From contig NZ_FOZE01000002.1 of assembly GCF_900113225.1 (NCBI RefSeq), positions 806,001 to 870,000 of the forward strand: a stretch of DNA of 64,000 bases, read 5' to 3'. This DNA is from Mitsuaria sp. PDC51 (GTDB taxonomy: Bacteria > Pseudomonadota > Gammaproteobacteria > Burkholderiales > Burkholderiaceae_C). Made by a program: the position numbers and the translations under genes. A model generated the notes under the pieces. The model searched no databases. It was given only the letters and a program-made list of their open reading frames with translations, and was not told where the DNA came from. Of this stretch, positions 38,030 through 49,217 are shown piece by piece. Within the stretch, counting starts at the first letter, position 1. Every line of letters begins with the position of its first letter.

Positions 38030-38425
38030 TCAGTTGATGATCTCGCCCATGCCGGCTTCAACGCGAGCGCGAAGGGTCTCGATGAACTCGGTGTCGTACT
38101 TCTCCCAGTCCTCCAGCTCGCCCACGACCTTCAGGGCGTGCGTGCTCCGATACGAGCGCGTCGGATTGCCGGGGAACTTCTTGTCCGTCACGTTCGGATC
38201 GTTCTCGAAGTCGCCGAGCGGCTCGACGATGTAGACCCGCGGTCGGCCGTTCCCCTTGGCGATCTCGGCGGCGAGTCCGGCGCCTTTGGCGATCGCCGTG
38301 AAGTAGATGTGGTTCATCACCAGGCTCGGCTTGTAGTTGGACGTGAAGCCTGGCTTGAGCAGATCGCCGGACCGGAGGTCGGCTTTGGTGCCATGGAAGA
38401 AGGGCCCCTGATCGAGTGCCTGCAT
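38030..38425 (-). CDS. arr: Rifamycin (rifampin) ADP-ribosyltransferase
   Basis: 131-residue cytoplasmic Arr enzyme, which inactivates rifamycins by ADP-ribosylating the ansa-chain hydroxyl using NAD. The full-length family pattern is visible: GPFFHGTKADLRSGDLL, the YFTA strand (HIYFTAIAKGAGLAAEIA), RVYIVEPLGDFENDPN, KKFPGNPTRSYRS and the terminal VVGELEDWEKY. The Met at 38425 matches the usual start; a Met 15 codons earlier is possible. It is convergent with the CLC gene (58 bp). No integron attC site was seen beside it, so it appears to be a chromosomal type rather than a cassette. Confidence 0.93.
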   Translation of the reverse strand: MQALDQGPFFHGTKADLRSGDLLKPGFTSNYKPSLVMNHIYFTAIAKGAGLAAEIAKGNGRPRVYIVEPLGDFENDPNVTDKKFPGNPTRSYRSTHALKVVGELEDWEKYDTEFIETLRARVEAGMGEIIN

Positions 38426-38463
38426 GTGTGCTCCGTGCGGGGAATCGGCGTTCAACGCAGCGC

Positions 38464-39399
38464 TCAACACCGAATGGGGCGCGACAGGACGTCGTGCGCG
38501 GTCGGCATCTTACGTAGTCCGACGCGCTCGTCGACGCCGCGCGGAGCTCGGCAACGCGACCGCGCCCTGCATGAGCGCCTGAGCGACGCGATGAGCAGAC
38601 CAAGACCCGCGACGACCATGGCCGATGTCGATGGCTCCGGCACCGGCACCACGGGCGGGACCGCCAACGGCGGCGCGACGGTGGGTGGCAGCTCCGTCAC
38701 GGCCGGCGGCAGCACGAAGAGCGGCGGCGGGGGAATCGCTGTCGGCGGTGAGCCCGTTGGCGGCGGACCGATGGATACCCGCGGCGGGCTCACGAACGAG
38801 CCCGGCGGCGTCGCCGGCACGCCGGTCAGCGGGGACGGCGGCAAGGTCGACAGCGGCGCTGGCGAGTCCCCAGGCACTGGCGCGGGCACACCGGCACCGG
38901 GTGGATCGAAGACCAGTTCTTCATCACCCGGCGGCCTGGCGCCACCGCCACCGCTGCCCGGCGCCCGCTCGATGCGGCTGACATTGCGACACACCGTCGG
39001 AACCATCACGCAAGCCGAGCCCTCGCAGTAGACGAGCGCGCGTTCACGCTGACCCTCGCTCCAACCGGCGCGGCTGACGGTGCCGCACACGCGGCCCTCG
39101 CCGAAATGCATGCCGCGGATGTCGGGCTCGTAATCGGCGCGGCCCACGATGCGATCGCGCGAGATCTCGACCACGTCGTCGTACTCGTGCGCGCGCATCC
39201 GGGCCTTGAGCCGCTCGCGCACTGCGGGCGGGATGTCCGTATAGCGATCGACCGCCGCGGGCACGTCGCCCATGAAGCTGTCGTGCCCCGGCGTATCCCA
39301 GGAACAGGCGGCCGGTCGGGTGGCGGTGGCGGCAGCCACGGAATGGGCGATCGCCGCGCCCATGGCCATCGCGGCCAGTCTGGTCAACAAGCGGTGCAT
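38464..39399 (-). CDS. MHFG-family PEP-CTERM protein with extended C-terminus
   Basis: 311-residue exported protein with a signal peptide (MHRLLTRLAAMAMGAAIAHSVA). The central domain (about 30-130) contains the family-naming tetrapeptide in RGMHFGEGRVC and four or more cysteines. A 110-residue Pro/Gly/Val-rich spacer follows, then VPEPSTSAM, a hydrophobic helix and an Arg cluster: the PEP-CTERM signal recognised by exosortase. Unusually, 38 further residues (CRARSRCRAPRG ...) follow the Arg cluster, where such proteins normally stop within a few residues. That may reflect a lost stop codon. Function unknown, presumably cell-surface or biofilm matrix. Confidence 0.82.
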   Translation of the reverse strand: MHRLLTRLAAMAMGAAIAHSVAAATATRPAACSWDTPGHDSFMGDVPAAVDRYTDIPPAVRERLKARMRAHEYDDVVEISRDRIVGRADYEPDIRGMHFGEGRVCGTVSRAGWSEGQRERALVYCEGSACVMVPTVCRNVSRIERAPGSGGGGARPPGDEELVFDPPGAGVPAPVPGDSPAPLSTLPPSPLTGVPATPPGSFVSPPRVSIGPPPTGSPPTAIPPPPLFVLPPAVTELPPTVAPPLAVPPVVPVPEPSTSAMVVAGLGLLIASLRRSCRARSRCRAPRGVDERVGLRKMPTAHDVLSRPIRC

Positions 39400-39536
39400 C
39401 GGCAGGGTGGCGGCCCTGGGGACCTTGTCGGAGTGGAAACCGACAACGGTCTGGCAAGTCAGATACCTGGGGGGCAGGACTTGCGCTGGCGGGCCGGGAC
39501 ATGCCGGTGCGTATTTCGGAGGCGCTGCCTTGAGGT

Positions 39537-40343
39537 CTAGTCGGTTCTGACTGAGCAGCGGTCGTCATACGGGAACAGGTCGGCATGGTCCTTCGTGCAG
39601 ACCACGAAACATCGGTTGACGACCAACTCACGGCGCTCCTGCGCGCTCAGTCCCCCGTCGTCCACATCACCCGGTGGAAGTTTGGACAGATCGATGTCGC
39701 CGTCCACGTTGAAATGGAACATTCCGTCTAGGAGATAGTCCCGCCGAAAGTCCGTTCGCCAAGACGAGTTGCTTCCCCAGCCATGGGCCAGGTCTTGATG
39801 CGGGCGCGTCTTTCTGCGGTGTGCCCAATACAGCGTTGATTGGTCCGCTATCCCCGGGGCCATGTGCGCCGAGCCAGCGGACACCGTGACCCCGGCACGC
39901 ATGAAAAGCATCGGGCCGAGCATCAGGCAGGGCCAGTGGTACTTCAGGATTCGAGCCGGTCGAGCGGGATCGGCAATGGGCGTCAGTCCGACGATCTCGT
40001 GATGGAAGGGCGACCATCGTTCGGAGTGAACGATGTCCAATCCGATGCATTGTGCGAACCGGTGGAATTCGTCCTCGGTGACCGCTGGCCCCGGCCACTC
40101 GCTGCCATCGGCAGACCCCGTCTGGAATCGAAGCGCGAGCAGTTCGAGCACACGATGGGCCGCATAGAGATGCCAGAGTTCTTCGCTGGACATCTTGGGA
40201 ATCGGAGTGCCTGTGCGGGCACCCAGAGATCGCAGCAGCTCGATTTCTGGGAGGTTGTTATCTAACCAAGGGCGCAAGAGGTCATCGAAGGCAGCCTGAC
40301 CTTCGTATTCCAGCAGCGAGTGATATAGAGATCGAAAGGACAT
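39537..40343 (-). CDS. Conserved-looking hypothetical protein
   Basis: 268 residues, soluble, no signal peptide. Start taken at 40343 (MSFRSLYHSLLEYEGQ) because the 64 residues of the longer reading are arginine-rich and overlap the DUF6404 gene. Sequence is rich in Trp/His (GLTPIADPARPARIL, HWPCLMLGPMLFMRAG, YWAHRRKTRPHQDLAHGWG), suggesting a compact enzyme-like domain, but I do not recognise the family. It lies 79 bp after the DUF6404 gene on the same strand. Confidence 0.55.
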   Translation of the reverse strand: MSFRSLYHSLLEYEGQAAFDDLLRPWLDNNLPEIELLRSLGARTGTPIPKMSSEELWHLYAAHRVLELLALRFQTGSADGSEWPGPAVTEDEFHRFAQCIGLDIVHSERWSPFHHEIVGLTPIADPARPARILKYHWPCLMLGPMLFMRAGVTVSAGSAHMAPGIADQSTLYWAHRRKTRPHQDLAHGWGSNSSWRTDFRRDYLLDGMFHFNVDGDIDLSKLPPGDVDDGGLSAQERRELVVNRCFVVCTKDHADLFPYDDRCSVRTD

Positions 40344-40422
40344 CTTCTCGGCGGTGTTCGTCGGTCTTGCGTAGGTCAGCCAGCGTATGTCCTCGAGTTG
40401 GGGCTGCACCGTTGCAAGCTGT

Positions 40423-40782
40423 TTAGACGCTGCTCCACGACGGAAGCCGATGACGCAGCCTTCCCGCTCGGTAATAGGTGGCGACCGCCGCTCCCCAGAC
40501 CAGCGTTGTGGCCGCACTTGCAAGAAGCACGGCAAGCGGCGACGTCGTCCATGTCTCGTGATCCATCATGCACAGCCCAAGCACACACAGGCCAAGGGGG
40601 AGCCCATTGACAAGCGTGACACCGCCGAAGCTCATGAAATGCGGCGGAGGAATCCGAATCCCCAACTTCCAATACGTTGGATACATGGGCGGAAGATAAG
40701 TGCCTCTGTCCATCCCTGTTCGCTCAAGGATGCGTAACGCCCGGGTCACCTTCTCTTTGAAAATTTCAGAACGCATATTCAT
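40423..40782 (-). CDS. DUF6404-family small membrane protein
   Basis: 119 residues from 40782 (MNMRSEIFKEKV); a Met two codons in is equally possible. The N-terminal helix RALRILERTGMDR, followed by YPTYWKLGIRIPPPHFMSFG and two C-terminal hydrophobic segments (LVNGLPLGLCVLGLC; LAVLLASAATTLVWG), matches the DUF6404 pattern of a short soluble helix, a PPPHF turn and a helical hairpin. Function unknown. The left end of the Tn7-like element lies only 37 bp upstream of the start codon, so its original promoter or operon link to glmS has been separated. Confidence 0.72.
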   Translation of the reverse strand: MNMRSEIFKEKVTRALRILERTGMDRGTYLPPMYPTYWKLGIRIPPPHFMSFGGVTLVNGLPLGLCVLGLCMMDHETWTTSPLAVLLASAATTLVWGAAVATYYRAGRLRHRLPSWSSV

Positions 40783-40814
40783 CTGTTGACAGAACGTCAG
40801 AGGCGCAAAGAGGC

Positions 40815-40819
40815 CCAAC
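40815..40819. repeat. Left copy of 5-bp target-site duplication CCAAC
   Basis: CCAAC directly abuts the TGTTCACGG terminus. The identical pentamer abuts the other end at 47325. Five base pairs is the duplication length made by Tn7 and its relatives. Confidence 0.82.
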
Positions 40820-40948
40820 TGTTCACGGACAATAAAGTCTGCGACACGTCCTCCCGGGAAGTGAGCCGGTGATCGATATGCAAAAGTCGGCGGCTCATCG
40901 TTGATGAGGCAGATTGATTGCGCTGGGGCAGCAATAAAGTCTGCGACA
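40820..40948. repeat. Left end of the element with TnsB-site-like repeats
   Basis: CAATAAAGTCTGCGACA occurs at 40830-40846 and 40932-40948 in direct orientation, the first within the terminal TGTTCACGGA context. A degenerate third copy (ATGCAAAAGTCGGCGGC, about 40879-40895) lies between them. Three spaced sites over about 130 bp match the layout of the Tn7 left end. Confidence 0.8.
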
Positions 40949-41124
40949 ACGGAGCGCCCACTAATTGGCTTCTCCGATCCAAAGCGCCGATCTAACGGCG
41001 ACGCGGAGAGAACTTGCGGCGCGTGCTGGCTGGAAGAGGCCTCTTGCCCCCTCCTGGGAAAGAACTCTGATCAGTCACCCAGACCTTCTTGCAAGAGTTC
41101 TTGCAGTAGATCAAAGCTCCGGGA

Positions 41125-43740
41125 TCACGGCGCAACGAGCACTGCCGGCTTGATGCGAGCCCGCACGTCTTGATAGATCGGAATATCCGCCTTGGCTTCC
41201 AAAGTGACCGCAAGCCCGTAGGGGATTACCGCATCGAGGTGCGCAGTCGCATCCTTCTTGCACACGACGCGAATTCGCAGATTGGCGCCGTCCTCGAACG
41301 CTTGTATCTGGTTCTTCCCCTCCAGCACCTCGTGTTGCACCGTGCCCCGTTCGACTTGGTTATGATCCCCATCTTGACGGTCTAGCCTGAGAACTTGGCT
41401 AGGCCAGCTTCCTCCGCCCGGCTCCAATACCAGTTTGGCCTCGCGAAGATTCCGGTGACCCGGGTTGATTGGCGTCAACCAAGCAAGTGTCACCACTAGC
41501 CGACGCCAAATCTTCTGGGAAGAAAAGCCTACGGGTATCGGAAATGCATACTCGTGAACCTCGTTCTCACGAATCTCGCCGCATCCCAGTACCGTAGCCC
41601 GGCGCTCGGTGCAGGTCAGCACGCGCTCTATGTCAACCGCTCCATAGCCCAGAAACCGTGCGACCACCTGCTTGAACTGCCTTGAATTGCTGACGCTCTT
41701 CAGTGCTTGTTCCAAGTGCTTCTTTCCCGCGTCGTCCTGCTTGGCTCCGTGGACAAGCAATGCCTTCATCAGCACCGACATCAACGACTCGGGGATGGCC
41801 TCCCCCTCCTCAACACGAAGCCTGTCAAGCATGTCGTAGAGGCGTACAGCGCCGCGGGTCGCCAAAGCGGTTGCATTGCTTGTGCCTCGCGAAAACGCCT
41901 CATTCGTCAGCGCTCCCGGCTGCTTGCTGTCGAATGCAACCTTTTGCCCCGGAGCAAGTTGAGACTTATCGACGCGATAGCTGTTAGAGCCGGCTTGCAC
42001 TGGCGCCATGTAGAGCTGCCGTCCACCAGGCATCAGAATGTCCGGCTTGATCGAACGCCGAAAGCCAAACCCCAGCCGACTAGCCGGGCTAAAGAGCGCT
42101 TGCGACGGCAGGATGTCCACTCGCTGACCGATCTGGGGATAGTGGTCGCCTGAGTCGTCGGCATGCGCCGCGCCCACGGTAACGGCGTTCATTGACTCGG
42201 CAGGCGACAGTAGGCGTCTGGAAGAGAGGCCATTCGAGATTGCCGTCAGCGTAGCCTTGATCTTTTCCTGTTCGGAAAGAACTGCCCATTGCTGCTGGTT
42301 GAATCCAAGATCAATTTGATCGGCGTAGTTACCTGCGCTGACGCAGAATAGAACCCGATAACGATAGGAAAGCCAATCGAGCAATCTAGCCCATGGGCTC
42401 GGCGTATGAATGAATTCCCGCGCCGCATCTCCAATTGAGAGATTTACCACCTTCACAAACGGAGCCTGTGCGGGAAGGTCTCCACTGCCCTCAAACATGC
42501 GCCGCACAGCCACATGAATGCGATCCTCGAAGAACACACTGTCGGGCATGTGTTCGTCGTGATTGAGCGTCTGATGGTCAGGTTGCATTACAGGAATGCA
42601 ATACAGCTGCCGCCCCAGTGGCTCCGATTCTGGGTTGCTGCGATCACCATGCAAGATCAATGACGCCATCGCGGTGCCGTGCTTGCGTTCGCCAAGCTGA
42701 TAGTTCGCCTCAAGACCGAAGGCATCATCAACAATCACCCGGTCCTTCAAGGCCTCATGCAACTGCAGTGGCACGCCGTCGAGGAGCGCAGCTACCGCCT
42801 GCAGTTCACTGGCCCCCTCAGGGAACACACCGACTTCTCCCTCCCCCTCTCCGGAAGTGGCCAAGCTCTGCCCCGTAGGTCGGAAATACATGATGCTCGG
42901 AAACTTGAAGAGCTCAATGTCAACTTCCGAATCCGATGCTTCCACTTCGTCTAGCAGCCTTTTGATAGCGCCGGCCGGCAGCTCACCCTTCACTGCATGG
43001 AAAGCAATTTCAGGCATGTCGAGAAAAGCCCCCAGCGGCCGACCGCCTAGCCCCTCGAACAACGCTGTCAGCACAGTCTCGTTGCGTCTCCGCTTTGCCG
43101 CATCTCTCCTGTAGAAGAGCTCGACTTGGAATGTGATCAGCTGATTGGGCTGCAAAGGATCGACGAGATCGCGCCAGCGATCGATCATTCCTGTCTCAAA
43201 TAGCGTCTCTTCGATTCCCCATCGGCGCAGCACGCTCAACTGCTCGAACACTGCCTTCCATTTTGTCTTTCCATAGGGCAGCCCACGGCCTACCCTCCAT
43301 TGCCGCCATAAAGACAACAGTTCCTGCAAGCCAGCCATGTTGCTCATTGCAAGGAACATGCGCCCACTTAGCGGCTTGCCGGTCCGATTCCCCGTTTCGT
43401 CAAGTTCGTAGAACCCATCATCTGCAGCCTCGAATTCATCTAGCTCTGTCTCGCCCAGCCACTCAAGCCCAGCGGCTTCGATGGCCTGCTTGAAGTCCTC
43501 GACGCGCCCGACGACCTCGATGACCAAGACCATTTCAGGCTCTAGGCCAGCCAAGGCGCCGGTTAACGTTGCCTGATAGCGGGCGAAGTCCGCTTCAATG
43601 CTTTGAATCTGCCGCTCGACGCGAACCACCTGCGCGCCATGGCCCGGAACTCTTGGCGATTGAACCGGAAAACCCTGACCCGGGTCGGGTTGAAGCACCC
43701 GTTTATCCGGAAAAACTAGTAGTGGCAAATAGTCTGGCAT
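41125..43740 (-). CDS. S8-family subtilisin-like protease (subtilase), cargo of the element
   Basis: 871-residue cytoplasmic serine protease without a signal peptide. The subtilase domain spans about 330-640 with a full triad: Asp in RVIVDDAFG (residues 334-342), His354 in KHGTAMAS, the oxyanion Asn471 in SAGNYAD and Ser621 in SRGTSNATA. The 330-residue N-terminal region (WRQWRVGRGLPYGKTKW ...) and the 230-residue C-terminal beta-rich domain (GCGEIRENEVHEYAFPIP ...) are family-specific. It follows an AAA ATPase gene by 56 bp. Subtilase/AAA-ATPase pairs recur in defence islands, where the ATPase is thought to gate the protease. The target is unknown, and the defence role is inferred. Confidence 0.9.
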   Translation of the reverse strand: MPDYLPLLVFPDKRVLQPDPGQGFPVQSPRVPGHGAQVVRVERQIQSIEADFARYQATLTGALAGLEPEMVLVIEVVGRVEDFKQAIEAAGLEWLGETELDEFEAADDGFYELDETGNRTGKPLSGRMFLAMSNMAGLQELLSLWRQWRVGRGLPYGKTKWKAVFEQLSVLRRWGIEETLFETGMIDRWRDLVDPLQPNQLITFQVELFYRRDAAKRRRNETVLTALFEGLGGRPLGAFLDMPEIAFHAVKGELPAGAIKRLLDEVEASDSEVDIELFKFPSIMYFRPTGQSLATSGEGEGEVGVFPEGASELQAVAALLDGVPLQLHEALKDRVIVDDAFGLEANYQLGERKHGTAMASLILHGDRSNPESEPLGRQLYCIPVMQPDHQTLNHDEHMPDSVFFEDRIHVAVRRMFEGSGDLPAQAPFVKVVNLSIGDAAREFIHTPSPWARLLDWLSYRYRVLFCVSAGNYADQIDLGFNQQQWAVLSEQEKIKATLTAISNGLSSRRLLSPAESMNAVTVGAAHADDSGDHYPQIGQRVDILPSQALFSPASRLGFGFRRSIKPDILMPGGRQLYMAPVQAGSNSYRVDKSQLAPGQKVAFDSKQPGALTNEAFSRGTSNATALATRGAVRLYDMLDRLRVEEGEAIPESLMSVLMKALLVHGAKQDDAGKKHLEQALKSVSNSRQFKQVVARFLGYGAVDIERVLTCTERRATVLGCGEIRENEVHEYAFPIPVGFSSQKIWRRLVVTLAWLTPINPGHRNLREAKLVLEPGGGSWPSQVLRLDRQDGDHNQVERGTVQHEVLEGKNQIQAFEDGANLRIRVVCKKDATAHLDAVIPYGLAVTLEAKADIPIYQDVRARIKPAVLVAP

Positions 43741-43796
43741 CTTCCTCCCCTTTTGCTTGTAGTTGTCTAGCTATTCGTTATTTATTTCAGCTAGTC

Positions 43797-44810
43797 TCAT
43801 TCATCCGATGCAACTTCCCCTTTCGGCATCAAACGCTTTTTCCATTGCGCTAGTCTTGACATGGTGATCGCCTTGGCGTCGTTGATCTGCGTACTCAAGA
43901 CGGCGCGCCGCACCACGCCCATGCAAAACTCTTCCACTTCCGCAAAACTCAGACCTAGCAGACGTTTTGCGATCGTCTCAGCGGCCACGCCAAAATTAAC
44001 GTCGCATTTTTTGGCAATGGAGGCCACAAAGATAGTGAGCTGAGCACGCGTTGGCTTCGGCAGCTCCAGGCGAACTTGAAACCGGCGCCATACAGCGCGG
44101 TCCAACAACTCAGGGTGATTACTGGCTGCCACTACTACTACGTAGTCGGGCAAAGCATCCAGTTGAAGCAATAGGGAGCTAACGACTCGCTTTATTTCTC
44201 CCGTTTCGTGGGTGTCACCCCGTTCTTTTCCTAGTGTTTCGAACTCGTCAAAAAAGAGGACACAGCGCTGCGTCCTGACGTAGTCGAGAAGCGCCTTAAG
44301 CCGAGCAGATGTCTCGCCCAGGTAGCTGCCGATGAGCGATTCGTACCGGACAACAATCAGCGGCGCCATTAGCTCAAAGGCTAAAGCCTCCGCCACAGTC
44401 GTTTTGCCATTCCCGGGCGGCCCTGCGAGCAGAACGCGATGCATCGGACTTAGAGCATGTGCATGTAGAAGTTCCGCACGGTGCTGCTCTTCAACTAGCT
44501 CCCGCAATTGTGATCGAATGCCTTCCGGCAGCACCAAGCTATCTAATGAGCGCTCAGGAACAACCTCCGCCACCAAATCCTTTGGCGCTGCTCCGTAGGC
44601 CTGGGACTGCTTGGTCCTCTGCGCGTTTGATTGAAAGAGAGAAGTCTGCGCAGAGGCAGTTAGCAAAGCCTTCTCGAGACGTTCGGCCAAGACGCGATGC
44701 CCCTTGCTTTTCTCCTCCTGAATCAACGCCTCCGCTGATTTTCGGAACATCTGGTGGTCGCCGCCGCTGACTGCTCTCACCAAGGCAACCAGGGTATCCG
44801 CTTGAGCCAT
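43797..44810 (-). CDS. AAA+ ATPase paired with the subtilase
   Basis: 337-residue single-domain AAA+ protein. A helical N-terminal region (residues 1-90, MAQADTLVALVRAVSGGDH) may contact the protease or form oligomers. Walker A is GPPGNGKT (130-137), Walker B VLFFDEFE (184-191), the sensor-1 Asn is Asn231 in AASNHPE, and arginine-finger candidates lie in VWRRF. The fold is that of FtsH/spastin-like remodelling ATPases. It is the first gene of a two-gene operon with the subtilase downstream. It probably senses or unfolds a substrate for the protease. The 270 bp upstream hold the promoter, in which I saw no clear operator. Confidence 0.9.
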   Translation of the reverse strand: MAQADTLVALVRAVSGGDHQMFRKSAEALIQEEKSKGHRVLAERLEKALLTASAQTSLFQSNAQRTKQSQAYGAAPKDLVAEVVPERSLDSLVLPEGIRSQLRELVEEQHRAELLHAHALSPMHRVLLAGPPGNGKTTVAEALAFELMAPLIVVRYESLIGSYLGETSARLKALLDYVRTQRCVLFFDEFETLGKERGDTHETGEIKRVVSSLLLQLDALPDYVVVVAASNHPELLDRAVWRRFQVRLELPKPTRAQLTIFVASIAKKCDVNFGVAAETIAKRLLGLSFAEVEEFCMGVVRRAVLSTQINDAKAITMSRLAQWKKRLMPKGEVASDE

Positions 44811-45085
44811 TTCGTTTACCGTATTTGATGTCTAGGGCGGGCACATCCCAATGCACCCTGGGAGACTCTTCCCGCAAAGCGCGGGGCTGGCACTAAGGCC
44901 CGGGAATCTCCCAACTGAGACATATTATTCGCCATCTCTCGGCTGCCCTAGTGGGGATTTGCTCTTGGGGTGCGCGACCTACTGGCAGAGAACGGCGGCC
45001 AGCAGCAGGGCGCGACGCTGCGCATTGGTGCGAAGGTTCATGTCGGCGCGGAGCCCGGAAGGCAAGCTCGGGGGTTGCTGAGCGC

Positions 45086-45407
45086 ATGGTCCGCCGCATG
45101 CTCGAGCTACGTCTCGGCGACGCCGACGGCGCTGTTGAGGCGTTTCTGGCCGCAGGTGGACAGGACTACGGCGTCATAGCACCCACCTGCACCGCAAACG
45201 ATCGATGGTGCGATGCCGAGCTCGCCGCATTGGAGGCGGGCCACCTCGAGTTCCCCCGCTCTCGTGCTGCGACTGGCATGCGAGGACCTCGACGAGGCGC
45301 TGGCCGAAGAACTCGCGACGATCGAGCTCGCTGACCGTGTCATCGCCGCTGGTGCAGAGACCGAAAGGTCTACCGCTTTACGCTGGAAGCAGTCCTTGGG
45401 CTTCTAG
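45086..45407 (+). pseudogene. Small ORF broken by a one-base shift in a C5 run
   Basis: The frame from 45086 (MVRRMLELRLGDADGAVEAF) runs well to HLEF and then turns into arginine-rich nonsense. The plausible continuation (ALVLRLACEDLDEALAEEL ... WKQSLGF, stop at 45405-45407) lies in the neighbouring frame. Removing one C from the CCCCC run near 45253-45257 joins them into a protein of about 107 residues. It would be acidic and helical, and I do not recognise it. It lies 158 bp before the SIR2 gene on the same strand. Either a real inactivating insertion or a sequencing error could explain the break. Confidence 0.45.
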
Positions 45408-45564
45408 GACGTGAAGCTAGCTGAACGGACAAGCATCTGGTGCGTGCTCGCTCACTCCGCAAGAGATTCAGAGTACGCTCATCAGCTAGGCTCGCATTGC
45501 GAAACCAGTAGAAAAGCAGACCGACGGAGGGCTCTAGCCCGCGCTCGGACAAGGAGGGAGACTC

Positions 45565-46512
45565 GTGCTCAAGAACAAGACGACTCTGGTGCTTGGCGCC
45601 GGCGCAAGCCGGGCCATGGGCTTTCCAACAGGCGCGGGGCTGCTCGCAGCCATCCACAATCTGGTCACCGTGGATCGACAGCCGTTCGCAATTCAAGCCG
45701 GCCTATTCAATCCAGACGGAGCAGCCCTCTACGAGTTCATCGACGCGTTCCGCGGCTCGCAGATGTACTCCATCGACTCTTTCCTCGCACGACGGCCACA
45801 GTTCTCGGACATCGGAAAACGTGCCATCGCCGCGGTGCTACTCGAATGCGAGAAGGCATCCTCGCTCGACCGATGCACACACGCAGATGGTTGGATGCAG
45901 TATTTATGGAACAAGTTCGGCGCTGCGTCTTGGGATGAACTGGACTTCAGTTGCCTGCGCGTCGTCTCGTTCAACTACGACCGGTCGCTCGAGCACTATC
46001 TGCTCCAGGCCATCATCCACTCACATGGAGTCACGCAGAAGCAGGCACTCTGGAAACTGCAGGGCCTCAAAGTCGTCCACGTGTATGGCTCTCTGAGCGC
46101 CCCACTCCCAGAGGGAGACGGCTATCTCGCCTATGGATATGGAACCGAGAACAACGCCGCAGCCATAGTTGCGAAGCACCTTCAGGTCATCCCCGAGGGA
46201 CGCAACGACAGCGCGGTCCTAACCCTGGCTCATGAACATCTCCTGTGGGCCGACAAGATTGCGTTCATGGGCTTTGGCTTTGACCCCGTCAATATGGGCC
46301 GGCTCGATTCCCAGCGCACTTGTGTGCGGCAGGTTGATAGATCTGGCGGTCCAGCATTCCGCGAAATCATTGCCACCGGTTTCGGTCTTACGGACGTCGA
46401 GATTGACGCTGCTGGGCTTCTCATCGGAAATGGGAATGCCTCCCACGGTCGGCCTCGGTTCTACAAGACCGACTGCCTCACGATGCTCCGGGAATCAGGA
46501 ATACTTCAGTGA
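45565..46512 (+). CDS. SIR2-domain protein, cargo of the element
   Basis: 315-residue cytoplasmic protein with a SIR2-like NAD-binding fold: GAGAS (11-15), the Asn/Asp pair in SFNYD (135-139), the catalytic His in HVYGS (172-176) and GFGFDP (236-241). Proteins of this SIR2-like type consume NAD in several antiphage systems (Thoeris ThsA, DSR, and the SIR2-Argonaute and SIR2-HerA pairs). No second effector or sensor domain is visible. It begins with GTG, chosen because a strong AAGGAGGGAG ribosome site ends 4 nt upstream. It diverges from the subtilase/ATPase operon and is followed by decayed sequence, so any partner may be missing. Confidence 0.87.
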   Translation: MLKNKTTLVLGAGASRAMGFPTGAGLLAAIHNLVTVDRQPFAIQAGLFNPDGAALYEFIDAFRGSQMYSIDSFLARRPQFSDIGKRAIAAVLLECEKASSLDRCTHADGWMQYLWNKFGAASWDELDFSCLRVVSFNYDRSLEHYLLQAIIHSHGVTQKQALWKLQGLKVVHVYGSLSAPLPEGDGYLAYGYGTENNAAAIVAKHLQVIPEGRNDSAVLTLAHEHLLWADKIAFMGFGFDPVNMGRLDSQRTCVRQVDRSGGPAFREIIATGFGLTDVEIDAAGLLIGNGNASHGRPRFYKTDCLTMLRESGILQ

Positions 46513-46785
46513 GGATTGAAGCTTGAGGCTTGGCGTTGGCCGGTGGCCTTGCCATCCCGCTGCGCACGCTCGTGGGCGCCCCATGCGGACTTCGCAGGGG
46601 GCAGCTTCGCAGCGGAAGCCAAATTCGTAAGGCGGTGCACGAACCCTCCGTGAAGCGCCGATCGAGACAGAGAATGCGAGCAGCAGCATTCGCGGTTCCG
46701 CAGACCTTAGCGCCCGCGAGTTGCGGTTGCTAGGGGCAACGACGACGGCCGATAAGGCGGATGACCGTCCCGGAAATGAGCGCAC
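46513..46785. other. Decayed sequence between the SIR2 gene and the hsdS fragment
   Basis: About 270 bp in which no frame gives a recognisable protein. An opposite-strand frame runs through it and through the hsdS fragment but looks like a shadow. It is probably debris of the type I restriction locus or of lost element genes. Confidence 0.4.
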
Positions 46786-46986
46786 ATGTTCAGTTGCTGG
46801 TGCGTGGTCGGAGACTTCAGACGGAAGGCGATCCCCGTCCCACCGGTTAGCGAGCAAGCGCGCATCATTGCCCGCGTCACCGAACTCCGTCGTCTCTGCG
46901 CTGACCTGCGCCCGCGCTTGGATCACACTCGAACCACGCAGACATCGCTCGCTGACGCCTTGGTCGACCAAGCGCTGGCTGCCTAG
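46786..46986 (+). pseudogene. C-terminal fragment of a type I restriction specificity subunit (HsdS)
   Basis: The last 66 codons of an HsdS-like reading frame remain: the hallmark IPVPPVSEQARIIARVTEL followed by a central/distal coiled-coil helix (LRRLCADLRPRLDHTR) and the usual ending LADALVDQALA. The target-recognition domains and any hsdM/hsdR partners are absent. In intact subunits this segment is the conserved helix that spaces the two recognition domains. The remnant shows that the element once carried a restriction-modification locus, consistent with a defence-island history. Confidence 0.7.
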
Positions 46987-47267
46987 CCGTCTCGCAAGAT
47001 GAATCGAACGTTCAAGGATCTGAGAGGCCCATCCAGCGGGGACGACGCGTTTGAGTTCTCCTAGGGCGACCGCTTCGATGATTCCGGCATCAATTGAAAC
47101 GAACTTCTCCGGTCGCAGCGCAGTTGAGCGCCATGTCTGGTGCTGTTGCCCCACCACATTGCGCGCCTTCCAATTGATCTACTGTCATTCAATTTGACTG
47201 GAGCTCTTCTCTGATCCGGGACTCGGGCACCGCAGCACCGCTATCGATCACAGCACATCGAAGAAAT

Positions 47268-47286
47268 GGGGCGCATGAAGCGCCCC
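47268..47286. terminator. Terminator-like hairpin at the right end of the element
   Basis: GGGGCGC and GCGCCCC (7-bp perfect stem, 5-nt loop) with A-rich sequence to the left (AAGAAAT). Read on the minus strand, the stem is followed by ATTTCTT, so it could end glmS transcripts that enter the element. The native sequence beyond the insertion point shows no such hairpin. The element may therefore supply the terminator. Confidence 0.5.
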
Positions 47287-47296
47287 TTCGTTTGCC

Positions 47297-47324
47297 ATGT
47301 CTCAGACTTTAATGGCACGGAACT
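47297..47324. repeat. Right end of the Tn7-like element
   Basis: On the minus strand, starting beside the duplication, it reads AGTTCCGTGCCATTAAAGTC followed by TGAGACA, which matches the left end in 19 of its first 27 positions and in the spacing of the AAAGTCTG core. The outermost base is A where Tn7-type ends have T, which would be expected to impair transposition. Additional TnsB sites further inside were not evident. Confidence 0.72.
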
Positions 47325-47329
47325 CCAAC
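47325..47329. repeat. Right copy of 5-bp target-site duplication CCAAC
   Basis: The pentamer directly abuts the right terminus of the element. Thirteen bases (47330-47342) separate it from the glmS stop codon, somewhat closer than the roughly 25 bp of E. coli attTn7. Confidence 0.8.
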
Positions 47330-47342
47330 GTGCAGCCGCCCC

Positions 47343-49217
<1,875 letters not shown>

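Follow-up and report, generated by a model that had tools for sequence, protein, structure and literature searches.

The window analyzed here is a 64,000-nucleotide stretch of the genome of Mitsuaria sp. PDC51 (contig NZ_FOZE01000002.1, positions 806,001 to 870,000; all coordinates below are those of the window unless a contig or locus is named). Behind the open reading frame of glmS (47343-49217, reverse strand) it contains an element of approximately 6.5 kb (40820-47324) that is bounded by Tn7-like ends, carries an IetAS-type gene pair and has no detectable tns gene. The left tip at 40820 reads TGTTCACGGAC followed by AATAAAGTCTGCGACA, and the right tip, read inward from 47324, reads AGTTCCGTGCC followed by ATTAAAGTCTGAGACA. 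At both ends 11 nt separate the tip from the first TnsB-like site. Three sites, two clear and one weak, mark the left end, all on the forward strand: site 1 (40831-40846, within the tip region 40820-40846), the weak site 2 (GCAAAAGTCGGCGGCT, six mismatches, 40880-40895), located 49 bp past site 1 and 53 bp ahead of site 3, and site 3 (40933-40948), identical in sequence to site 1. The right end (47298-47324, reverse strand) has a single clear site (47298-47313). Its tip is AGT and that of the left end TGT, so the TGT...ACA pair expected of Tn7-like ends is incomplete; we read the AGT as decay of the inserted copy. By direct reading, the element is flanked by CCAAC at 40815-40819 and 47325-47329, a 5-bp target-site duplication (TSD) at exactly the position predicted by the spacing. 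The right end is proximal to glmS, and its tip lies 18 nt past the glmS stop codon, i.e., in attTn7. The inverted ends with equal spacing, the duplication and the insertion right behind glmS, which the original prediction had combined, are all borne out.

Two genes of the element form a putative defense system. The first encodes an S8 (subtilase) protease of the IetS type (871 aa; 41125-43740, reverse strand; PADLOC PDLC04233, E = 0 over residues 1-868; Pfam Peptidase_S8), the second an AAA+ ATPase of the IetA type (337 aa; 43797-44810, reverse strand; PADLOC PDLC04232, E = 5e-144; Pfam AAA). Both PADLOC models are matched across nearly their full length, and an alignment with relatives from Shewanella and Paracoccus plasmids shows conservation in IetS of what we take to be the subtilase Asp, His and Ser motifs. 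The pair thus shares with IetAS an AAA ATPase adjoining an S8 protease with catalytic motifs, and judged by its family it probably defends against phages. On a plasmid of Shewanella khirikhana (L178:1923-8529), a distant IetAS-type pair (37% for IetS) adjoins genes annotated as TnsD and TnsE.

The remaining cargo is less well preserved. Behind the pair follows a stretch of short frames of about 0.7 kb (44840-45560), probably eroded cargo; the one open reading frame scanned in it (44951-45334) has no family match. The next gene (45565-46512, forward strand) encodes a 315-aa protein with a weakly SIR2-like N-terminus (PADLOC Aga_SIR2, E = 0.0018; SIR2, E = 0.006). It has no Pfam or NCBIfam match, a peptide-pattern search of the genome contigs found no kin, and its single-sequence structure model (mean pLDDT 36.7) is too poor for use. 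Close to the right end lies a 66-aa stub of the C-terminus of a type I HsdS (46786-46986, forward strand; PADLOC Specificity_I PDLC03179, E = 1.7e-14, profile positions 534-588 of 589), sharing 50% over 56 aa with the HsdS of genome G177. Together, this stub and the short frames suggest erosion of the cargo.

The absence of tns genes from the 6.5 kb, as originally claimed, holds: neither a gene nor a remnant was detected. A tblastn search with 26 open reading frames from six Tns regions, some of which may not be tns and which did not include the resident TniB, gave a best match of E = 0.038 over the ietA stretch, and a separate tns search at E ≤ 0.5 gave no match. An autonomous set (tnsA, tnsB and tnsC with TniQ/TnsD) is accordingly not found within the element. 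A genome-wide search for tnsABC and its TnsB sites, proposed with the prediction, succeeded in its first half. The own genome (G000) has one TnsA and one TniQ match (E ≤ 1), both at C4:1210-1214 kb together with the sole above-cut-off Mu-transpos_C match (a second, with E = 0.62, is below the cut-off). This tnsABC-tniQ set (L011, C4:1206-1214.5 kb) includes TniB and adjoins a Mg_chelatase/ComM-type frame, presumably comM; its tnsB is 357 kb away from the element. No site within four mismatches of AATARAGTCTGAGACA is present in the 18-kb tns locus, and we have set this tns set aside as a helper. The own genome yielded no helper whose ends match.

The end type of the element, GTCTGAGACA, recurs in Burkholderiales, often behind glmS and beside differing cargo, so the ground for refutation named beforehand, absence of these ends from any Tn7-like family, does not apply. 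A double right-end pattern occurs at 11 loci in a collection of genomes from 84,980 species, including Roseateles terrae (G218, a genome of the same genus as the window), all under Burkholderiales names (three of them checked); the window element escapes this pattern because its right end has one site. Viral contigs gave no match to the double-site pattern, and a weak hit on a Rhizobium plasmid (H16) was dropped. A pattern search matched 36 of 399 genomes of the family, many by chance. Genomes were counted as carriers if they showed site arrays, a position behind glmS or paired ends, 18 in total (G000, G218, G235, G331, G345, G205, G175, G177, G185, G170, G259, G285, G119, G383, G318, G159, G243 and G308); G043 and G225 were dropped as doubtful.

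Many right ends have about 67 bp in common (three sites at a 20-bp pitch), followed by unrelated DNA, and those of G235, G331 and L084 are alike over 320 bp. Five left ends (G175, G235, G205, L081, L087) have three sites with spacings of 59-60 and 53-54 bp. The C-terminal 257 aa of GlmS match in 29 of the 30 genomes searched, the own genome included. Tests of 25 right tips placed 16 of them 18-25 nt past a glmS stop codon, three of these (G243, G159, G308) belonging to a sister type, GTCGTAGACA. Two others are further away, at 438 nt (G175) and 181 nt (G345, a weak case with a TTT tip), and seven have no glmS end within the stretch tested. The Variovorax element L087 is located at the 3' end of an alpha/beta-hydrolase gene, ahead of a histidine-kinase gene. 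Behind glmS of R. terrae (L068, 3472 and 3780), another right-end-like site follows 0.3 kb further in than the first array; this inner one resembles the right end of the window element. By eye, differing short repeats stand directly behind glmS in L038, L045, L046, L047 and L050, suggesting that several element families use the glmS site. In Aquabacterium commune (L184, 1-11394), a GTCTGAGACA right end comes immediately after a tns set of another type (tnsB, tnsC and two TniQ/TnsD-like frames); these are elements stacked head to tail.

Nine elements could be delimited by two ends, six of the window's type (window, G175, G318, L087, G177, G205) and three of other end types (G243, one element on a plasmid of Paraburkholderia megapolitana and a plasmid-borne one of 399 bp); G259 and G235 were excluded, having both ends on different contigs. 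None of the nine contains tns genes by tblastn or annotation. The only strong match is an IS481 transposase in G175 (E = 1e-6 to a TnsB), which we take as a shared DDE domain, and all other matches have E ≥ 0.03. We set this transposase aside as the mover of G175, as none was seen in the scanned or annotated parts of the other two-ended elements. Exact 5-bp duplications flank seven of the nine, including four of the six of the window's type; the two without one, G177 and G205, may pair ends of different insertions.

The cargo of these elements varies: a type I restriction-modification system plus a SIR2-like gene (G177), a HerA-like protein and an ATPase (G243), a flavoprotein (G205), LysR, flavodoxin and F420-type genes (L087), or a tyrosine recombinase, GNAT and others (P. 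megapolitana). Relatives of which one end was seen carry PDC-S28 (G218) or Lamassu (L084), and G259 carries a HEPN protein. PADLOC at E ≤ 1e-5 matched 10 of 20 related cargo proteins, in four of nine elements scanned (no match in G205, G185, G170, G308 and G259), so the expectation of a defense-island carrier fits these four as well as the window element. Directly inside the right end, the C-terminus of LmuB is found in three genera (L084; Brachymonas G235, 89%; Curvibacter G331, 69%), and it seems that a unit of end plus cargo has spread.

Plasmids provide further end types, some of them with their tns genes. Eleven plasmid records have such ends, nine of which were examined (H35 and H37 were left out). 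In five of the nine, tns genes lie inside the right end (L185, with an apparently broken-off tnsB; L187, L189 and L191; and L190, where the annotation reads 'transposase'). Three others (L176, L186, L192) are tns-free, and L188, whose record starts 1.5 kb further on, has no tns match and may belong to either group. The P. megapolitana element (L176:14996-22281) is 7.3 kb long, tns-free, with 3+3 sites and the TSD ATGGA. Its right end is 85% like that of Paraburkholderia phymatum pBPHY01 (L187), in which tnsA, tnsB, tnsC and TnsD/TniQ frames directly follow the right end. The 399-bp element lacks genes altogether and has 3+3 sites and the TSD TGATT on a Stenotrophomonas rhizophila plasmid (L186:14992-15390); it recurs in a Pseudomonas aeruginosa plasmid (L192:12001-12389) with 99.5% identity, a missing right tip and unrelated flanks. 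The same internal junctions are thus present at two independent sites, in two genera, the pattern expected from trans movement of a non-autonomous Tn7-like element. This supports a trans mechanism for a related end type, not its use by the window element. With the whole window element as query, no plasmid record covers 80% and no second copy was found on plasmids; among the matches listed (10 of 32 records), only ietA is matched, at most 7% of the element.

The best explanation, in our view a highly probable one, is that the segment is a genuine tns-free Tn7-like insertion in attTn7 carrying an IetAS-type pair. A transposon with GTCTGAGACA ends would have been inserted behind glmS by TnsABC and a TnsD-type selector, as we infer from the ends, the duplication, the orientation and the distance. 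The tns genes would either have been supplied in trans at insertion or have been lost afterwards, with about even odds, and the IetAS pair and eroded cargo would be the remnant. Several points speak against this explanation. No GTCTGAGACA-ended element with tns genes was found, the nearest being G308 with its GTCGTAGACA right end. An empty junction of glmS and the gene of the DUF6404 family beside the left end was not found in the genus (16 genomes, the own genome included). The right end is weak when judged by itself, and its 18-nt distance from glmS compares to 21-25 nt for the other glmS-linked tips. The protein pair scores far under the NCBIfam equivalog cut-offs (69 bits versus 900 for IteS and 233 versus 510 for IteA), which makes it an IetAS-type pair rather than the NCBI equivalog. 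The single site, the AGT tip and the outlier distance would also suit a coincidence of repeats, duplication and glmS position. Such a coincidence is nevertheless very improbable, since AATAAAGTCTGMGACA has only three matches with at most one mismatch in the 5.85-Mb genome, all within the element, against about 0.017 predicted by base composition. At up to three mismatches it occurs at nine places, the other six all with three mismatches, and a reversed-pattern control gives 10. The duplication at its predicted position and the same ends behind glmS in other genera argue equally against chance. The pair 40821-40846/47298-47323 (26 nt, 77%) ranks first among the 17 inverted repeats in 40700-47400, and the G+C content of the element is 57.9%, compared to 65.2% and 68.8% in the 5-kb flanks.

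How this tns-free insertion arrived is a more balanced question. The TnsABCD of another Tn7-like element may have moved the element in trans, as a passenger with cargo only, and decay would have followed later; this we place somewhat short of an even chance. G175 and L087, of the same end type, are tns-free with 3+3 sites and exact TSDs, and the plasmids combine tns-bearing elements with similar right ends and a gene-less copy in two genera; but no helper with window-type ends was found, the right cargo is eroded and no plasmid record covers 80% of the element. At the TnsA loci (34 examined, from 58 matches in one search and 4 in another) no window-type site within three mismatches is nearby, except for three poor three-mismatch matches. 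A lack of TnsA is no special sign of the carriers either: TnsA (PF08722) is present in 52 of the 399 family genomes, in 4 of the 18 carriers (G000, G243, G285, G308) and 48 of the 381 others, so carriers are not short of it. For TnsB, PF09299 gives above-cut-off matches for 2 genomes in a set of 13 and for 3 in a set of 15, a weak indication of absence because the model misses the TnsB-like frame that tblastn indicates in G308 (no Pfam family matches this frame at E ≤ 0.01); we have therefore relied on TnsA. Arrival as an autonomous element, followed by deletion of the tns block with ends and cargo left behind, has very nearly an even chance. The HsdS stub, the short frames and the single clear right-end site fit such a loss, and the truncated TniQ/TnsD start in the left part of G259 speaks for decay from autonomous ancestors. 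G308 is the only carrier with TnsA on the contig of a right end; there, a sister-type right end is followed by cargo and then by tns genes (TnsB-like, TnsC-like and TniQ frames too), with no left end on the same contig. Loss is countered by the lack of any tns remnant across the 6.5 kb and of tns genes in all nine two-ended elements, several with intact end arrays. Whichever route applies, the insertion is probably immobile at present: its right end retains a single clear site and an altered tip, and no matching-end helper was found in its own genome. Of the alternatives originally offered, moved in trans or decayed, the second seems to describe the present state (the HsdS stub included), and either may describe the arrival. 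We regard the element as a decayed representative of its end type, for which every two-ended copy found was tns-free.

An empty glmS-DUF6404 junction with one CCAAC, expected in related genomes, could not be confirmed. Among the 15 other genomes of the genus, 14 lack any match (E ≤ 1e-5) to the left flank (39500-40819). The exception, G400, matches positions 60-670 of the query at 71%, which covers the 332-aa gene rather than DUF6404, and this match lies 32 kb away from glmS of G400. The block beside the left end (39537-40818; a 332-aa gene and the DUF6404 gene, 59% G+C, nearly unmatched in the genus) is probably another acquired block. Further upstream lies an Arr-type rifampin ADP-ribosyltransferase gene (38030-38470; Pfam Arr-ms, E = 8.6e-47).

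Non-autonomous transposons of the MITE type consist of ends without a transposase. The window element shares these transposase-free ends, but it has genes and a degraded right end, and the 399-bp plasmid element is the closer fit to the MITE pattern. With Tn7 and TnsD-targeted Tn7-like transposons, as described by Benler et al. (2021; PMC8649781), the window element shares ~20-bp TnsB-type sites, at the left three of which one is weak, the 5-bp TSD, the glmS target, the right-end-proximal orientation and defense cargo; it differs in having no tnsABCD and one clear right-end site. As set out there, the survey looked within 125 kb of tnsB, so that its method does not reach an element whose nearest detected tnsB is 357 kb away, nor the elements of tns-free genomes. 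In the literature searched, with most subscription journals outside its coverage, we found no description of tns-free Tn7-like elements.

We tentatively propose, at somewhat less than even probability, that Burkholderiales harbor a class of transposase-free Tn7-like passengers, from MITE size to several kb, which retain only the end arrays, borrow TnsABCD in trans and bring interchangeable cargo, including defense genes, to attTn7 and elsewhere; the window element would be a decayed member. Catalogs of Tn7-like cargo overlook elements of this kind when tnsB is their starting point, and the end arrays offer a direct route to finding them. If it is common for defense genes to move between Tn7 ends that enclose no tns genes, the defense repertoire of attTn7 is undercounted, and one tns set could mobilize many cargo elements.

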